A stretch of DNA of 36,152 nucleotides from a bacterium. GTDB taxonomy: Bacteria > Patescibacteriota > Saccharimonadia > Saccharimonadales > SZUA-47. The notes under the pieces were generated by a model. It saw only the letters and a list, made by a program, of their open reading frames with translations, had not been told where the DNA came from and did not search any database. Every line of letters begins with the position of its first letter. Position 1 is the stretch's first letter. This document shows positions 10,516 through 19,033 of the stretch, piece by piece. The stretch spans positions 1 to 36,152 of the forward strand of contig JAUIKH010000008.1 of assembly GCA_030430915.1 (NCBI GenBank), written 5' to 3'. Position numbers and translations under genes: made by a program.

Positions 10516-10944
10516 ATGAAACCAGGATTAATTGCATCATTAATTGTAGCTCTATTAGTAATTACTGGGCTATTTGTGTTCGCAGCATCAGACAATACTA
10601 AAGAAGAGACAACCAGTAGCACCTCGCCAACCGTAGCTGAGGCTGAGGCTAGCGCTAACAATACTGATACTGAAGCAGTGAATCATACATCAGACGAGGT
10701 TGCCCAGCATGATAGCGAACAGGATTGCTGGACAATTATTGATGGCCAAGTATACGATATAACTTCATATATACCAAGGCACCCTGGGGGAGATGAGATA
10801 CTAAGAGCCTGCGGGACAGATGGAACTAGTTTGTTCATCTCTAGGCAGACACAGGAAGGCGCGCCAGTAGGAAGCGGGACAGCCCATAGCAATAATGCAA
10901 ACTCTCAATTATCTGAACTTTATATTGGCGAATTGTCTGACTAG
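10516..10944 (+). CDS. Membrane-anchored cytochrome b5-like heme-binding domain protein
   Basis: N-terminal hydrophobic anchor, Thr/Ser/Ala-rich linker, then DCWTIIDGQVYDITSYIPRHPGGDEIL; SD AGGAG. Confidence 0.85.
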   Translation: MKPGLIASLIVALLVITGLFVFAASDNTKEETTSSTSPTVAEAEASANNTDTEAVNHTSDEVAQHDSEQDCWTIIDGQVYDITSYIPRHPGGDEILRACGTDGTSLFISRQTQEGAPVGSGTAHSNNANSQLSELYIGELSD

Positions 10945-11888
10945 TTAGTCTTTTTACGGTCGTAATTTTCTAAGTATTCTCTGATACTCAGCGCAGCACT
11001 GGCGCCTTCACCTACAGCAGATGCAATCTGCATAGTCGCACCACTTCTGACATCTCCAGCGCAGAATATGCCTTTGATGTTGGTCATTAGTTTTTCATCA
11101 GTCTTAACAAAGCCGTACTCATCTAGTTCCACTCCAGAGTTTATTAAAAAATGCGTCACAGGTTTGAGCCCTATAAATACAAAAACACCGTCAGTAACGA
11201 AATCTATTTTTTTACCGTCTTTACCGCCAACGACTTTTGTGACTTTTTTCATACCATCCACATCACCGCCAACAATCTCATCGGTAGTAGTGTTGAAGTG
11301 CACAGCTATCTTTTCATTTTTATCAACTTCTTGAACTAAAACATCGCTGGCCTTCCACTTATCGCCTCTAATAAGAATGTCTATATGTGAAGCAAACTTT
11401 GTCAAAAACAGTGCTTCTTGCGCGCTAGAATTACCACTACCAACAACTACTAACTTTTTATCTCTGTAAAAAGCTCCATCACATGTTGCACAATTATGAA
11501 CACCTTTTCCATAGAATTCCTGTTCTCCAGGAATCCCTAGTTTTTTCCACTCACTTCCAGTCGCAACTAAAACAGTCTTTGCTAAATAACCACCTATAGC
11601 GGTCTTTATATTGAATACATCGTCTTTCTTTTCGATATCCTGTACTTCGTCTAGCTCAATAACTGCACCAAATCTTTCAGCTTGTTTACGCAGATTTTCG
11701 GCTAACTCCATTCCTTCAATGCCCTTAGGGAATCCAGGATAGTTATCTATTTTATCTGTAATGGCCGCTAGTCCACCAATTATACCTTTTTCAAGTATTA
11801 ATGTTTCGATATCTTCTCTGGCTGTGTACACTGAGGCCGCTAAGCTCGTTGGCCCCGCACCTATCATTATCACATCATATGTTTTCAT
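10941..11888 (-). CDS. trxB: Thioredoxin reductase / FAD-dependent pyridine nucleotide-disulfide oxidoreductase
   Basis: GAGPTSLAASVYTAR, CATCDGAFY, GIFCAGDVR. Confidence 0.93.
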   Translation of the reverse strand: MKTYDVIMIGAGPTSLAASVYTAREDIETLILEKGIIGGLAAITDKIDNYPGFPKGIEGMELAENLRKQAERFGAVIELDEVQDIEKKDDVFNIKTAIGGYLAKTVLVATGSEWKKLGIPGEQEFYGKGVHNCATCDGAFYRDKKLVVVGSGNSSAQEALFLTKFASHIDILIRGDKWKASDVLVQEVDKNEKIAVHFNTTTDEIVGGDVDGMKKVTKVVGGKDGKKIDFVTDGVFVFIGLKPVTHFLINSGVELDEYGFVKTDEKLMTNIKGIFCAGDVRSGATMQIASAVGEGASAALSIREYLENYDRKKTN

Positions 11889-11917
11889 TGCCTTTAGCTC
11901 CTAGTTCTTAGTTACAC

Positions 11918-11941
11918 ATGTTTAAGTATCTACTTAAACAT
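11918..11941. promoter_or_regulatory. Perfect palindromic operator upstream of trxB
   Basis: ATGTTTAAGTA-tc-TACTTAAACAT, 11-bp arms with 2-nt centre. Confidence 0.7.
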
Positions 11942-11950
11942 TCTACACCA

Positions 11951-11976
11951 AAAGAGCCTGCTCAAGCAAGCTCTTT
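11951..11976 (-). terminator. Probable rho-independent terminator downstream of glutaredoxin
   Basis: AAAGAGC-c-TGCT-ca-AGCA-a-GCTCTTT hairpin; minus-strand side followed by a short T run. Confidence 0.5.
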
Positions 11977-12006
11977 ATTAATCTAAACACCCTATGTTTT
12001 ATCTTT

Positions 12007-12255
12007 TTAAGCAATAACAGATGCTAGTCTAGGTAAATTGAATCCTATGACTACTTCTTCTGTTTTATCTTCTTTTTCTACTAACGTAACTGGTACGGTT
12101 AACGCACCACTTTTTTCGTAAATTTCTTTTTGCTTGTCTGGTTGATCGTCTAAGTTTACGACTTCATAGCTAACACCTTTTCCGTCAAGATATTTTTTTA
12201 CCATGGCACAGTAAGCGCAGGTGTTTGTAGTGAAAACTGTTACTTTTTTTGACAT
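12007..12255 (-). CDS. Glutaredoxin-like protein
   Basis: TNTCAYCAMVKKYLDGKGVSYEVVNLDD; SD AAAAGGAG. Confidence 0.9.
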   Translation of the reverse strand: MSKKVTVFTTNTCAYCAMVKKYLDGKGVSYEVVNLDDQPDKQKEIYEKSGALTVPVTLVEKEDKTEEVVIGFNLPRLASVIA

Positions 12256-12404
12256 TGCGAGACTCCTTTTAATTGTCTTGTTTGGTTTTGTTAAGTTTTT
12301 AAGCTTATGCTTGCTATTGTAAATGGTGTTTTGCTAAATTGCAAGCACACCACATGTTGTGTAATTGACTTTATTTTTAGTTTTTTTGCCCCCTCTTTTA
12401 ATTT

Positions 12405-12989
12405 TTAACTCCCCCTCTTAGTCGATACAATTTCAACTTCGAAGATCAAATCTGAATTTGCAGGTATACCTGGTCTTTCTTGGTCACCATAAGCCATGTC
12501 TGCTGGTATTAGTAGTCTTCTGACTCCACCTACTTTCATTCCGGGAATACCTTCTGTCCAACCAGGAATAACTCCATTCAATGAAAACTCTATTGGAGTT
12601 CCTTCTTCATAATTTCCGTCAAATTTTGTTCCATCAGTCGCTAGTGTTCCATAATAGAGTGCCGCCACACAATCTCCAGGCTGCACTTCTTCGCCATCTC
12701 CAACTTTGACGTCAACTGTCTCTAGCTCTTTAATGGGTGTAGGAGCTGTTACAACTTCTGGTGTAGGTCTTGGGTCTACTGCTGCAAACTGACCAGCTCC
12801 ACATGCATTTGCTGCCTCTGCAGCTTGCTGTTCTGCTGATTGGTTTGTATCCAGTGTTTCAGAAGTTTCATTGACTATTGGGTCTTGGTTAATCTGCCAT
12901 ATAACGTAAGCCGTCGTACCGATAGTAGTTATTAAAAATAATCCAGCCAGCAAAAAAGCTGCCACTCTCTGGCTATTAGAACTTGCCAT
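12405..12989 (-). CDS. Membrane-anchored FKBP-type peptidyl-prolyl isomerase
   Basis: N-terminal TM; VKVGDGEEVQPGDCVAALYYGTLATDGTKFDGNYEEG...VIPGWTEGIPGMKVGGVRRLLIP. Confidence 0.92.
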   Translation of the reverse strand: MASSNSQRVAAFLLAGLFLITTIGTTAYVIWQINQDPIVNETSETLDTNQSAEQQAAEAANACGAGQFAAVDPRPTPEVVTAPTPIKELETVDVKVGDGEEVQPGDCVAALYYGTLATDGTKFDGNYEEGTPIEFSLNGVIPGWTEGIPGMKVGGVRRLLIPADMAYGDQERPGIPANSDLIFEVEIVSTKRGS

Positions 12990-13136
12990 AAATTGTTACC
13001 CTCCACGCGTGTTAATTTTTGTTCCGCGATTAGCTATAGTATAGCCTTTGAAAACGTAGAATCCAACTGGATTTTCGTTGTTTTATTTTCATATACATTT
13101 TGCACTAACAGAACATCTGCTGCTACTTTGTTGTTG

Positions 13137-15842
13137 CTAAGATTTCTTGGACTTTTTCTTTAATCTGTTATTTTTTCGTGCTTTTCTAGTGCCCTTGCTC
13201 ATCCTCATTCTAAACCACTCTGCAGCGAGGTAATAGTAAGGGAAAGAAAATATTACTAAGAACGTACTTGAAATAAGTCCAAAAATAATAGTAAATGCTA
13301 GTGCTTCCCAGAAAGGATCACTTAAAGCAAGTGGCAACAAAGCTACCACTGTAGTAACTGTAGTGGTGACTAGAGGCCTGAACCTTTTCGTAGTTGCATT
13401 TGCAATAGAGTCTATTGCTCCAAGCCCAGATCTCCTCTCTTGATTAGCATAGTCCGTTAAAAGAATCGTGTTGTTGACAGCAATTCCAATTAGACCAATT
13501 AAACCTACTTGAACAAAAAAGCTCAGCGCATTGTCTGTTAAATACAAGCCACCAAAGACTCCAAAGAATGTAAACGGTATAGCCACAAATATTAACGCGG
13601 GCTGTATCAAAGATCTGAACTGTGTAGCTAAGAGTACATACATTAATAGTAGCGCTAGTGGAAATGCCCAAGCTAATGATGCAAATGATTTGGCGTTTTC
13701 AGTTTCTTGACCGAAATCAAAACCCAGCGCATCCTCAGAATAACCGTTGCTCGATAAGTATTCTGGCGTAAACTTCTCCTTAACATAATCCTCCGACAGC
13801 GCTAACAAAGCTGAAGTATCATCGGCATTAAATGAACCTTGAACTGTTAGTGTTCTCTCGCCGTCAACTCTGGTAACCAAAAATTGTGAAGCTCCGTCTA
13901 TATGTTCTTGAACTTCTAATGCCAACTTAGTACCCTTTTCAATATCTTCATCAACAACTTGAATTGTTAAAGGAAATTCACTTAATGGTGGCCCAGCATC
14001 ATACTGTACCACCCTGATAGAAACCTCTTTTGGAATCTGATCATTAATAGCTGTTTGCAGGTTGTTAATTAATTCAGGTGATTTTATATCACGCTGACTA
14101 AACGGCACAAGCTCTATCAAGGCGTCTGCTGAACGGGCATTAGGCTGTTCAAAGCTACCATAAAGTACTCGTCTGACGTTCTCGCCGATCTCTTCTTCAA
14201 TAATATTGTTAATCTGGCCAGCTGTATCCTGTGCTTGATTTATTGTGTAGCCCTCTGGAAATCGAATCTGAAACCCTATTTGATCACTATCTTTGGTAGG
14301 TGGAAATATGTTAAAAGATAATTTTGATGCAAATTGTCCAGCACCCATCATGAATACAATACTCATACTAAACATTGCAAAAGCCACAAGCTTACCAGCT
14401 TTTGGTTTAGTTTTTAATAAGCGAGGCATTGCTCCAACACATTTTCCTGCCCATACTTCAAGTTTTGCTATCGGGTTTATACGCGTAAACCAGCTAGTGC
14501 CCTTCGCATTGAGCATAATAAATTTGGACAAGAAAGGTATTATAGTCAAGCTTAAAAACAGTGAAGTTATTAGAGCAATTATAATTGTTATTGGCATAAG
14601 TCTTATAAATTCACCTAATATTCCTGAGAGAAATGCTAGTGGTAAAAATACCAATACAGTTGTGAAGGTGCCCGCGAAACTTGCCGCTCCAACTTTCTTG
14701 ATCGCACCATGAACTATTTCTGAAGCTTTTTTCTTCTTTTTTCTGTTCGCGTCTATTGCTTCTACTACTATCGTTGCATCGTCAACAAATAACCCAAGGG
14801 ATAATACTAGTGCAAATAAGGTAATTGTATTTAGTGTATAGCCTACTAGGTAAAGCACCATTACAGTTGCTGCCATTACAGATACCATGAATAGACCTGT
14901 GATAATTGAAGCTCTCCAACCAATCATGAGCAAACTTATTACTGCAACGGCAAGCAAGCCAGTAAACAAGTTTGACTGAAGTGAGTTAATTTGTGTATTA
15001 ATTGATTCGGCAAAATCAGCCCCGATAATGACTCTATAGCTAACTTCATCGTTATTGAATTGTTCTAGATTTAAATTAGAGACTTTTTCCGTCATTTGAT
15101 CAGAAAGCTCAATAATGTCTATTTGCTCTTTGTCGCGGTCAACACCAATAGTGATTGCATTATAAAACTCTACCTTACCTGGCTGATCTTTTTGAGACAG
15201 CCCTACAGAATTAAAATTGGTCTGTTGTGTTATTTCCGCACCCGTTTGTGGGTTTATACCTTTGCTAACCAATCCTTGTTTTTCTGCATAAACAATATTT
15301 TCTTCTTTTTGAATCTCTTCAGTGACGTAATCTGCAACTTTTTCTAATTCTTCAACACTTGCTTCACCAGAAACATAAACAGAAAGTAGCATATCAAATT
15401 CATTTAGAAATCCCGCTGGATCAATAACAACATAGCTAAGGCTTGCTTCATTTGGAATTTCGTTTGATTTTTTAACCGCTTCTTCTAGGTCTTTAGTAGC
15501 CGTATTAGCATCTACGCCCTCTTCGAAAGAAACTATTGCACTGAAAAAATCTCCTCCTGAAGTAGTGGTTACTGACTTAACTGAATTATCCTGATTAATA
15601 ATCTCATAGAGCGGTTGGGATACCTCACTATCAACCCTATCAGCATCAGCAACAAAATACGTACCTTGTACAACACTCAATGGGAACTGAATTGCAGGAA
15701 AGCCTTCGCGTTTAATAATGTTGGTGTAAATAATTCCACCACCAAAAATAATTACCACCCAAATTACCGCTGTAAGACGCCAATTCTTAAAGAACCAATC
15801 GCTAACTTTCACAAGAATATTATCTTTTTCTTTTGCTCCCAT
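13137..15842 (-). CDS. RND-superfamily (AcrB-like) efflux transporter, 901 aa
   Basis: GLFVDDATIVVEAIDANRKK, GLIGIAVNNTILLTDYANQERR...ATTKRFRPLVTTTVTTVVALLPLAL. Confidence 0.92.
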   Translation of the reverse strand: MGAKEKDNILVKVSDWFFKNWRLTAVIWVVIIFGGGIIYTNIIKREGFPAIQFPLSVVQGTYFVADADRVDSEVSQPLYEIINQDNSVKSVTTTSGGDFFSAIVSFEEGVDANTATKDLEEAVKKSNEIPNEASLSYVVIDPAGFLNEFDMLLSVYVSGEASVEELEKVADYVTEEIQKEENIVYAEKQGLVSKGINPQTGAEITQQTNFNSVGLSQKDQPGKVEFYNAITIGVDRDKEQIDIIELSDQMTEKVSNLNLEQFNNDEVSYRVIIGADFAESINTQINSLQSNLFTGLLAVAVISLLMIGWRASIITGLFMVSVMAATVMVLYLVGYTLNTITLFALVLSLGLFVDDATIVVEAIDANRKKKKKASEIVHGAIKKVGAASFAGTFTTVLVFLPLAFLSGILGEFIRLMPITIIIALITSLFLSLTIIPFLSKFIMLNAKGTSWFTRINPIAKLEVWAGKCVGAMPRLLKTKPKAGKLVAFAMFSMSIVFMMGAGQFASKLSFNIFPPTKDSDQIGFQIRFPEGYTINQAQDTAGQINNIIEEEIGENVRRVLYGSFEQPNARSADALIELVPFSQRDIKSPELINNLQTAINDQIPKEVSIRVVQYDAGPPLSEFPLTIQVVDEDIEKGTKLALEVQEHIDGASQFLVTRVDGERTLTVQGSFNADDTSALLALSEDYVKEKFTPEYLSSNGYSEDALGFDFGQETENAKSFASLAWAFPLALLLMYVLLATQFRSLIQPALIFVAIPFTFFGVFGGLYLTDNALSFFVQVGLIGLIGIAVNNTILLTDYANQERRSGLGAIDSIANATTKRFRPLVTTTVTTVVALLPLALSDPFWEALAFTIIFGLISSTFLVIFSFPYYYLAAEWFRMRMSKGTRKARKNNRLKKKSKKS

Positions 15843-15860
15843 TGTATCCTCTGATTTTAA

Positions 15861-15876
15861 TTAAGTATCTGCTTAA
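15861..15876. promoter_or_regulatory. Palindromic operator upstream of RND exporter, same motif as trxB site
   Basis: TTAAGTATCTGCTTAA; 15 of 16 bases identical to TTAAGTATCTACTTAA at 11922-11937. Confidence 0.65.
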
Positions 15877-15910
15877 TAGCTTAACACGCCAGCAGTCAAA
15901 ACCATTACTT

Positions 15911-17686
15911 CTATTCTATAATTCCAAACTTCGACAACGCCTTTTGTCTTTCCTCTACTGACGTAGCAGTCTGTAGGGCCAACAACTTTGAATATATGCC
16001 TGATTTTTTTGCTAGTTCTCTTGGCGTACCTGATTCAGATACCTTACCGTTTTTAATAGCAACTATTTTGTCGACACTTTGTATGGTGCTTAACCTGTGG
16101 GCAATAATAATTGTTGAACGGTCTTTCATTAAATGTTCCAACGCTTCTTGTACTAATATTTCGCTCTTACTGTCCAGACTGCTAGTAGCTTCGTCAAGAA
16201 TCAAAATCGGCGCGTCCTTAAGAATTGCTCTAGCTATAGCAATTCTTTGTTTTTGACCTCCGCTTAGTTTTAACCCTTTTTCACCAATTTCTGTGTCATA
16301 GCCATTTTCTAGCTTTGTTATAAATTCATGTGCATTTGCTGCCTTTGCAGCCTTTACTACTTCATCTTTTGTTGCATTCTTGTTCGAGTATGTAATGTTC
16401 TCGTTTATTGTACCGCTAAACAAATTCGGGTCCTGAAAAACAACACCTATGTTAGACCTTAGACTTTTCTGTGTAACGTTTCTAATATCTGTACCGTCTA
16501 TTAATATCCTCCCTGAATTTGGCTCATAAAGTCTAAGTAATAAATTAGTCAAGGTTGTTTTGCCTTCGCCGCTTTCACCAACAAGGGCTACTTTTTCGTC
16601 AGGGTTAATTTCAAAACTTACGCCTTTAATTATGGCTTTATTCTTATCGTATTCAAAGTTAACATCTTCAAATACAATTTTTGGTTTATCAATTTCCAGT
16701 TTCACTGAGCCTTCATTATCTTTAATATCTGGTTTAATGTTCATTACCTCAAAATAGTCTCGACTGTCAGCAACAGCCCTCTGGGTCTGCTCTACCAGCC
16801 AGCTGATTGTGAATATTGGTATCCTAATGTTCATAGCATACAAAATTAAAGCGACTGCTTGACCAGGTGATAATACACCTTTAGCACCCTGATAAAATAT
16901 GAACAAGTAAACACCATAAAATATAATATTTAGAACAAGCCGTCTCTTTACATCCTCTTTATGCCAGTGCTTAGACTGGGGTACATTTGTGCGCTCGACT
17001 ATACCGAAGTGCTTATTAAAGAAATTGATCTCTCGTTTTTCTTGTATATAGCTTTTTACTACTTTTACTTGTGATATGGACTCAGCAAAACGTCCACTAG
17101 CAATATCTGTGTGTTCGTTTTTAATTTTTTGAAATTTTTGCCACTTTCCACTACTTCTTACTGTTAATACAATAAATACTGGATAAAGCATGAATAACAT
17201 CAACGCTACAGGCCAGCTATAAATTGCAACTACTATCAGACTAAGCACTGTGCTGAAAATAAACTGCAGGAAGTTATTACTCATTGACTGTATAAATCCA
17301 GTAACTTGAGTTATTGACCTGTTTAGACGGCTAATTATTTTACCGCTTAACTCTGTATCGAAGTAACTTTGGGGCAGCGTTAGTAAATGTTCGTAATACT
17401 TAATACTTAATATTTTCTGTAACTTTACCTGTATTTGGTCACCAACATAGCCGTTTATATTGCTTAAGATGGTTTGAGCTAAGTCTAGTAAAAATATTCC
17501 TGTAGCTAATATTACTAGATATTTTATATTCGACTCTGTGCCAAGCTTCATTTCATCTATAGCCCATCCAGATAGAAGTGGAATTATTATGGTAAACAAA
17601 GAAAACAAAGAGGTTAACAACGCAACAAGTAAATACTTACCACGCAGCTCTTTGCCAACTGCAAGAAGTTTAAAAATATCTTTCAT
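15911..17686 (-). CDS. ABC transporter, fused permease/ATPase (type IV exporter)
   Basis: Walker A GESGEGKTT, signature LSGGQKQRIAIARAIL, Walker B ILILDEATSSLD. Confidence 0.95.
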   Translation of the reverse strand: MKDIFKLLAVGKELRGKYLLVALLTSLFSLFTIIIPLLSGWAIDEMKLGTESNIKYLVILATGIFLLDLAQTILSNINGYVGDQIQVKLQKILSIKYYEHLLTLPQSYFDTELSGKIISRLNRSITQVTGFIQSMSNNFLQFIFSTVLSLIVVAIYSWPVALMLFMLYPVFIVLTVRSSGKWQKFQKIKNEHTDIASGRFAESISQVKVVKSYIQEKREINFFNKHFGIVERTNVPQSKHWHKEDVKRRLVLNIIFYGVYLFIFYQGAKGVLSPGQAVALILYAMNIRIPIFTISWLVEQTQRAVADSRDYFEVMNIKPDIKDNEGSVKLEIDKPKIVFEDVNFEYDKNKAIIKGVSFEINPDEKVALVGESGEGKTTLTNLLLRLYEPNSGRILIDGTDIRNVTQKSLRSNIGVVFQDPNLFSGTINENITYSNKNATKDEVVKAAKAANAHEFITKLENGYDTEIGEKGLKLSGGQKQRIAIARAILKDAPILILDEATSSLDSKSEILVQEALEHLMKDRSTIIIAHRLSTIQSVDKIVAIKNGKVSESGTPRELAKKSGIYSKLLALQTATSVEERQKALSKFGIIE

Positions 17687-17727
17687 TAACTACATAATAC
17701 TTGAATCTTTGAATATTAACATAAAAA

Positions 17728-17751
17728 AACTGGGCTGTTTTTAGCCCAGTT
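17728..17751 (-). terminator. Rho-independent terminator downstream of metK
   Basis: Minus-strand AACTGGGCT-(loop)-AGCCCAGTT followed by a T tract (plus-strand aaaaaaactgggct...agcccagtt). Confidence 0.85.
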
Positions 17752-17848
17752 ATGGAATATGCATGACGTTTCCACCATCACACTTCCATTATTATTTTAT
17801 ATTTTAATGACAACAATTAAAAGTGATTTTATTCACACAATAGTCCTA

Positions 17849-17879
17849 AATCATATTTAAATATGATTTAAATATGATT
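17849..17879. repeat. 20-bp palindrome plus an 11-bp-phased third arm
   Basis: AATCATATTTAAATATGATT followed by AAATATGATT at 17870. Confidence 0.6.
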
Positions 17880-17929
17880 TTACCTTAATTTTATCTATAT
17901 TTTCCTAAAACACTGTTGATTGACAGTTA

Positions 17930-19033
17930 TCAAACTACTTTTTCCCAAGGTAAACTTTCTTTTCCGAAATGGCCATAAGCAGTTGTTTTTGAATACATTG
18001 GCCTTCGTAAATCAAGCCCTTTTATTATCCCTACTACTGACGTGTCTAATAAATTATCAACAAACCCATGTATCTCTTTTAAAGACACTGTTTCTGTTCC
18101 AAAAGTATCAAACGACTTCATTAAAGGCTGTGGCTTCCCGATTACGTATGCTAGTGCTACTTCGCATTTATCCGCCAGACCTTTAGCTACTACATTCTTC
18201 GCTAAAAATCGGGCTGCGTATGCACCAGATCTATCTACTTTTGATGGGTCCTTACCACTAAAAGCACCTCCACCCACTCGGGCATATCCACCGTAAGTAT
18301 CAACAACAATCTTACGTCCTGTTAGACCGGCATCTGTATCAGGTCCTGGTATATGCCAGGTACCTGTTCCATTTATGACTACATTGTTTTCAATAATCTT
18401 GTAGCCGTACTTTTCTAGTACTTTATCGATGATTTCAGTTTTAATAGTCTTCCTTACTTCATTTTCATCAATATCTTCATTGTGAGCAACAGCCAAAACG
18501 ACTTTTTCAATGTTGATTGGTTTGCCATCTTTATATTCCACTGTAACTTGACTTTTACCGTCTGGTCTTAACCAATTTATTTGCCCAGACTCTCTTGCTT
18601 CATCAAGTGCCTGTGTTAGCCTGTGAGCAATTGTAATAGGTAAAGGCATTAATTCCTTTGTTTCTCTGCATGCAAACCCAAACATCATTCCCTGGTCGCC
18701 CGCACCGTCTTTATCAACTCCCTGAGCGATTTCAGGCGACTGTTTGTGTATGTTGTTGTCAATAGGTGATTTATCTGAAAAGTTCCAGTCTGAGTTTGTG
18801 TAACCAAGTTTTGCAACCGTATTCCTTGTAATTTTTTCAAAATCTAAATCAGCCTTAGTTTTTATTTCTCCAAAAAGACCTATTTTGTTAGCGCCTACTA
18901 TAGTTTCTAGACCTGTACGAGACAGAGGATCTTGTGCTAAAGCTGCGTCCAATATTGCATCACTTATTGCATCTGCAATTTTATCTGGATGACCAGCTGC
19001 TACAGATTCGCTTGTAAAAATTTGATATGACAT
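17930..19033 (-). CDS. metK: S-adenosylmethionine synthetase
   Basis: FTSESVAAGHPDKIADAISDA, GAGDQGMMFGFA, GGGAFSGKDPSKVDRSGAY. Confidence 0.98.
   Translation of the reverse strand: MSYQIFTSESVAAGHPDKIADAISDAILDAALAQDPLSRTGLETIVGANKIGLFGEIKTKADLDFEKITRNTVAKLGYTNSDWNFSDKSPIDNNIHKQSPEIAQGVDKDGAGDQGMMFGFACRETKELMPLPITIAHRLTQALDEARESGQINWLRPDGKSQVTVEYKDGKPINIEKVVLAVAHNEDIDENEVRKTIKTEIIDKVLEKYGYKIIENNVVINGTGTWHIPGPDTDAGLTGRKIVVDTYGGYARVGGGAFSGKDPSKVDRSGAYAARFLAKNVVAKGLADKCEVALAYVIGKPQPLMKSFDTFGTETVSLKEIHGFVDNLLDTSVVGIIKGLDLRRPMYSKTTAYGHFGKESLPWEKVV

Follow-up and report, generated by a model that had tools for sequence, protein, structure and literature searches.

The window analysed here, a stretch of 36,152 nt, comes from an 869-kb genome (G000) of a Saccharimonadales bacterium. 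Its minus strand carries a cluster of genes ending in trxB, the gene of thioredoxin reductase (Table 1). The trxB product matches Pyr_redox_2 as well as TIGR01292, the latter with 322.9 bits, slightly below the curated cut-off of 343. The gene order metK–ABC exporter–RND–FKBP–glutaredoxin–trxB (window positions 10941-19033) is conserved in several genomes of the family; the RND gene is absent from this cluster in G004 and G010. The intergenic region that separates metK from the ABC exporter gene contains, at 17847-17880, an AT-rich palindrome with a repeat, TAAATCATATTTAAATATGATTTA(AATATGATTT), unrelated to the sites discussed below.

An earlier note on this DNA had pointed to two palindromes, one upstream of trxB and one upstream of the RND exporter gene, with 16-bp cores that differ at one position. 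Both are real and correctly placed.

Table 1. Genes and sites at the trxB locus, with the regulator gene found elsewhere in the genome
Feature	Position	Strand	Basis or remark
trxB, thioredoxin reductase, putative regulated gene	10941..11888	minus	TIGR01292, Pyr_redox_2
trxB Shine-Dalgarno AGGAGC	11897..11902	minus	sequence
Putative trxB operator, 24-bp palindrome ATGTTTAAGTATCTACTTAAACAT	11918..11941	.	sequence, matrix score, conservation in relatives
trxB -10 box TAGAAT	11940..11945	minus	sequence; TACAAT/TATAAT/TAGAAT at the same place in relatives
Candidate trxB -35 box TTGCTT	11964..11969	minus	sequence; 18 nt upstream of the -10 box
Glutaredoxin gene	12007..12255	minus	next gene upstream in conserved cluster
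FKBP-type peptidyl-prolyl isomerase gene	12405..12989	minus	same cluster as trxB
RND-family exporter gene	13137..15842	minus	regulon membership uncertain
Weak lineage-specific candidate operator TTAAGTATCTGCTTAA	15861..15876	.	between ABC gene and RND gene
ABC exporter gene	15911..17686	minus	
ArsR-family regulator gene	G000:C4:23053-23403	minus	outside the window

The palindrome upstream of trxB

By inspection, ATGTTTAAGTATCTACTTAAACAT has two arms of 11 bp that match perfectly and are separated by a 2-nt centre; perfect palindromes with arms of at least 11 bp and a centre of at most 2 nt are expected 0.05 times per shuffled window. Starting 29 bp ahead of the trxB start codon, it shares two bases with the -10 box. 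A consensus-based scanner called no promoter at trxB, the -35 candidate included, so the trxB promoter rests on comparison with relatives: in G003 and G005 the counterpart of the -35 box is TTGCGA, likewise with 18 nt. The site is kept in five of the eight assessable family relatives: in G001, G003, G005 and G006 it directly follows the trxB -10 box, and in G008 it precedes a gene that encodes a Grx-TrxB fusion. No site was found directly at trxB in G004, G007 and G010. In G010 the operator precedes the ABC gene that heads a cluster ending in Grx-trxB.

The earlier note had proposed to scan the genome for the motif with two mismatches and had named, as an outcome that would speak against it, occurrence at background frequency, including within genes. 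Such a scan with TTAAGTANNTRCTTAA gave 28/29 matches vs 35/34 for the control in the 869-kb genome, most of them in genes; there is no excess, and taken alone this is the adverse outcome named. We consider the scan uninformative, since the pattern carries neither the true degeneracy of the site nor its flanks. A tighter search with the 24-mer turned up another, nearly identical site in front of a DUF427 gene (C50:17368). Matches in the same genome at C38, C41, C44 and C53 were rejected as lying inside genes; those at C44 and C53 also score low. Across 11 genomes of the family, TTWAGYNNNNRCTWAA occurs at 55 sites compared with 19 for the reversed control, part of these sites being background within genes.

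We built a scoring matrix from 30 training sites, all from other genomes, with the sites of the window left unused; the training sites were hand-picked from core-pattern matches, hence their own scores are optimistic. The matrix gives 30.3 bits to the trxB site, on a par with the top of the training set, 30.3 to the DUF427 site, 22.1 to a site at a DsbA-like gene and 21.7 to one at an ArsR-family gene (all in G000). In shuffled sequence about one site per Mb reaches 14 bits, and the largest maximum was 18.5. The proposal of the earlier note that the trxB palindrome is an operator for a dimeric protein is supported by its conservation in relatives and by its recurrence in the arsR promoter described next.

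An ArsR-family gene with the motif in its own promoter

A gene of the ArsR family is present in all 11 family genomes (the copy in G008 is a fragment at a contig end); named relatives belong to Candidatus Saccharibacteria / Saccharimonadia. At most loci it is followed by a glutaredoxin gene. In essentially all relatives the trxB motif recurs in the promoter of this gene, between the -35 and -10 boxes, as in the example TTGACA-TATATTTAAGTGTTTGC-TAAAAT-ACTAAC-ATG, where the putative operator fills the spacer; promoters of this build (TTGACA-N17-TAAAAT) were found in other families of the class as well. Such an arrangement, with the operator in the -35/-10 spacer of the regulator's own gene, is typical of autoregulated repressors. 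In G000 itself, the site on C4 is imperfect: it is half conserved, between the divergent genes of the ArsR protein and an FMN reductase, and a clear TTGACA was not seen there. The arsR messages of relatives (L042-L050, L114) look leaderless, with the ATG about 6 nt past the -10 box.

The regulator matches PF01022 with 48.9 bits (cut-off 22) and NF033788 with 75.2 bits (cut-off 55), which places it in the ArsR/SmtB superfamily, whose members are HTH_5 winged-helix proteins of ~100 aa that bind inverted repeats as dimers. Its AlphaFold model (mean pLDDT 90) retrieves CadC, CzrA and HlyU in Foldseek searches. MarR, TetR and Rrf2 types, which had been suggested as the cognate family, were set aside, the MarR model giving 19.9 bits, below its cut-off; the autoregulatory motif and the class-wide co-occurrence of motif and gene both point to an ArsR type. 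In a set of 295 genomes of Saccharimonadia, the 18-mer TTTWAGYRNNYRCTWAAA was detected in 14 of the 20 with the ArsR gene (24 sites) vs 15 of the 275 without it (15 sites; Fisher p = 7e-12, a value that overstates independence as the genomes are related). These counts partly rest on arsR's own promoter; in genomes lacking the gene the sites occur at about the background rate and mostly inside genes. The earlier idea of one regulator encoded outside the window is supported, with the ArsR gene on C4 as its probable source.

Several observations extend beyond the family. The ArsR gene has a patchy distribution in the class (20 of 295 genomes) and is nearly absent from its largest family, f2. Throughout the phylum, similar sites are frequent at related ArsR-Grx pairs. 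Three ArsR-like proteins whose recognition helix reads SHHL rather than SQHF (L217, L221, L224) have ATTCAA-N-TTTGAAT palindromes upstream of their genes; operator and recognition helix thus seem to vary jointly, as expected if the ArsR protein reads the operator motif.

The arsR promoters bear on whether the trxB palindrome might act as an RNA hairpin in the trxB leader, a stabiliser of the mRNA or an attenuator. The earlier note had dismissed a hairpin on the ground that a 2-nt centre is too tight for a loop; that argument does not hold, as the leader folds into a hairpin whose stem has 10 bp and whose loop has 4 nt (-11.1 kcal/mol, z -2.2). A search of the window against Rfam gave no match. 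At arsR, however, the motif is located in the -35/-10 spacer, outside the predicted transcript; moreover, the right arm of the palindrome has decayed in G005 and G006, and presence of the site tracks the ArsR gene. The first two of these facts favour a DNA operator, and we regard the hairpin as very improbable.

Putative regulon and the RND site

In the 11 family genomes the motif was found at trxB or Grx-TrxB genes, at genes of DsbA-like Thioredoxin_4 proteins accompanied by a membrane protein, and at DUF427 genes; further contexts are NADPH-FMN reductases, CcdA/DsbD, rhodanese and disulfide reductases, besides the ABC gene in G010. All seven DsbA-like orthologues have the site (with only 17.4 bits in G005) vs none of nine paralogues. 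DUF427 genes are located near arsR in six genomes and have an operator of their own in three where they lie elsewhere (G000, G001, G003). Both distributions serve as internal controls and support a thiol-redox regulon.

Two features of neighbouring genes were recorded along the way. The DUF427 gene of G000 (L006:1549-1851) has an apparent ATT start right behind its Shine-Dalgarno sequence, with no in-frame ATG, GTG or TTG nearby. The DsbA-like operon has a divergent neighbour (L098:1596-1958, L094:1097-1528, L101:1176-1592) that shares its operator region and codes for a zincin-like metallopeptidase (PF06262 in L098) or a protein resembling one.

The earlier note had joined efflux to thiol redox under the same control. 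The thiol-redox part stands, as thiol and redox genes carry sites; the efflux part fares less well. The RND site would be a genuine low-affinity operator, with the pump in the regulon in this lineage, if weight is given to its intergenic position 18 bp upstream of the RND start, to its score (12.4 bits, the second best in the window), to a core identical to that of the site upstream of CcdA in G001, and to the presence of only two exact matches of the tight pattern in the 869-kb genome. Nevertheless, 12.4 bits is below every training site (the lowest has 17.7) and is reached by chance about 1-2 times per Mb. Comparison of upstream regions, which bore out the trxB site, revealed no site in front of any of the eight RND matches from seven other genomes, G000 being the sole member of its genus in the set. 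Neither did the scanner recognise a promoter at the RND site, which had been placed at a promoter or leader. Membership of the pump is unproven, and we hold it possible, with the balance tilting somewhat against it.

Proposed switch and comparison with known ArsR systems

With a probability of about 0.77, we propose that an ArsR-family autorepressor, which is released by oxidation and governs a thiol-disulfide regulon, uses the trxB palindrome as an operator. The repressor, encoded elsewhere in the genome in an operon with glutaredoxin, would bind as a reduced homodimer to a site of ∼24 bp with consensus ATRTTTAAGTRNNTRCTWAAAYAT. It would keep RNA polymerase from trxB by covering the -10/start region and, in relatives, from its own gene by covering the -35/-10 spacer. 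Once the conserved Cys43/Cys81 pair is oxidised or otherwise modified, the repressor would come off the DNA and so induce trxB, glutaredoxin, the DsbA-like thioredoxin, FMN reductase, DUF427 and other thiol-disulfide genes (the RND gene perhaps as a weak lineage-specific target), until the restored thiol pool reduces the repressor again. The site, its overlap with the promoter, regulon membership, the co-occurrence of regulator and site, and the invariant cysteines are read from sequence; direct binding, the chemical signal and repression by occlusion (rather than activation), the last suggested by the overlap of operator and promoter, are what we infer.

The two cysteines, 38 residues apart, are invariant in the A1 and A2 regulator sets. 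C43 stands where the HTH begins and C81 belongs to the wing; in the model, residues 42-43 form a short strand and residues 79-84 a strand of the wing. Such strands usually pair in winged helices, so a cross-strand C43-C81 disulfide is geometrically plausible in the monomer model. Two invariant cysteines on predicted neighbouring strands suggest sensing of thiol oxidation. No operator was found with ArsR-like proteins that lack the pair (L145, L147) or have it at another spacing (L146).

Glutaredoxin and FMN reductase genes can also accompany arsenic genes, and the regulator might, like classical ArsR/SmtB proteins, respond to thiophilic metals or metalloids (arsenite, Cd, Zn, Cu), the redox genes forming a detoxification set. 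The match to NF033788, a generic metalloregulator model, agrees with such a role; the SmtB/CzrA/CadC sensors are the closest solved folds, and C43 aligns with SmtB Cys61. Yet the regulator is without the full metal-ligand sets (an N-terminal Cys plus CxC at alpha3N; Asp/His/His/Glu at alpha5): C43 and C81 are its sole invariant cysteines, H61 in the recognition helix is the one invariant His in A1/A2, and the C-terminal region has no conserved His. The CmtR and TsoR models score far under their cut-offs, no Acr3 arsenite exporter was found in the 11 family genomes, and the site-bearing genes encode thiol-disulfide enzymes rather than metal pumps. We consider metal sensing quite unlikely.

Sensing of reactive sulfur species instead of oxidants, through a polysulfide bridge as in SqrR, BigR and HlyU, is less improbable but still unlikely. 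Sites are found at rhodanese and CcdA genes, the fold matches HlyU and SqrR, and BigR, SqrR, YgaV and HlyU likewise have the ArsR fold with two cysteines per protomer. Their cysteines are located in helices 2 and 5, however; the YgaV cysteine aligns about nine residues before C43, hence the geometry differs, and the BigR model gives 23.8 bits vs a cut-off of 155. HlyU-type two-Cys ArsR proteins are known to sense persulfide, through another Cys pair (PMC10509353).

Oxidation sensing by the Cys43/Cys81 pair has its nearest parallel elsewhere. Residues 19-87 of the regulator align with 19-85 of structure 7txm, which we take to be RexT; judged by the limits of the aligned regions, C43 would fall within about one residue of RexT Cys41. 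RexT is an ArsR-SmtB sensor of H2O2 in Nostoc that controls trxA2, and its peroxidatic Cys41 contacts the wing (PMC8960804). Both have the ArsR fold; a redox cysteine where helix 3 begins, turned towards the wing, and control of a thiol reductant gene would be further likenesses. RexT, however, has vicinal Cys40-Cys41, whereas here a single cysteine at this place (preceded by Met, Leu or Tyr, so that the resolving Cys40 is not matched) is combined with Cys81 in the wing strand; RexT regulates thioredoxin in cyanobacteria, whereas the Saccharibacteria regulator has an operon with glutaredoxin and a putative regulon of several genes. For CyeR, an ArsR-type regulator, we know of no glutaredoxin operon. 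As described in the RexT paper, CyeR is inactivated via the cysteine equivalent to RexT Cys41 and differs in its target, an old yellow enzyme gene (PMC8960804).

A literature search covering few subscription journals found no described regulon for such a regulator in Saccharibacteria, small-genome episymbionts with few known regulators. The present one would give them a concrete redox regulon, connect thiol stress with DUF427 and further uncharacterised genes, and offer a new cysteine arrangement for ArsR sensing. The chance is slightly short of even that it represents a distinct ArsR-glutaredoxin switch of Patescibacteria, with a cross-strand Cys pair not described for RexT, BigR, SqrR or HlyU, a global thiol regulon acting through leaderless and overlapped promoters, and a half-site that, across the phylum, follows the recognition helix (TTTAAG with SQHF; ATTCAA with SHHL). 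ArsR-type redox regulation as such is already known; new would be the cysteine arrangement, the glutaredoxin operon and the phylum.
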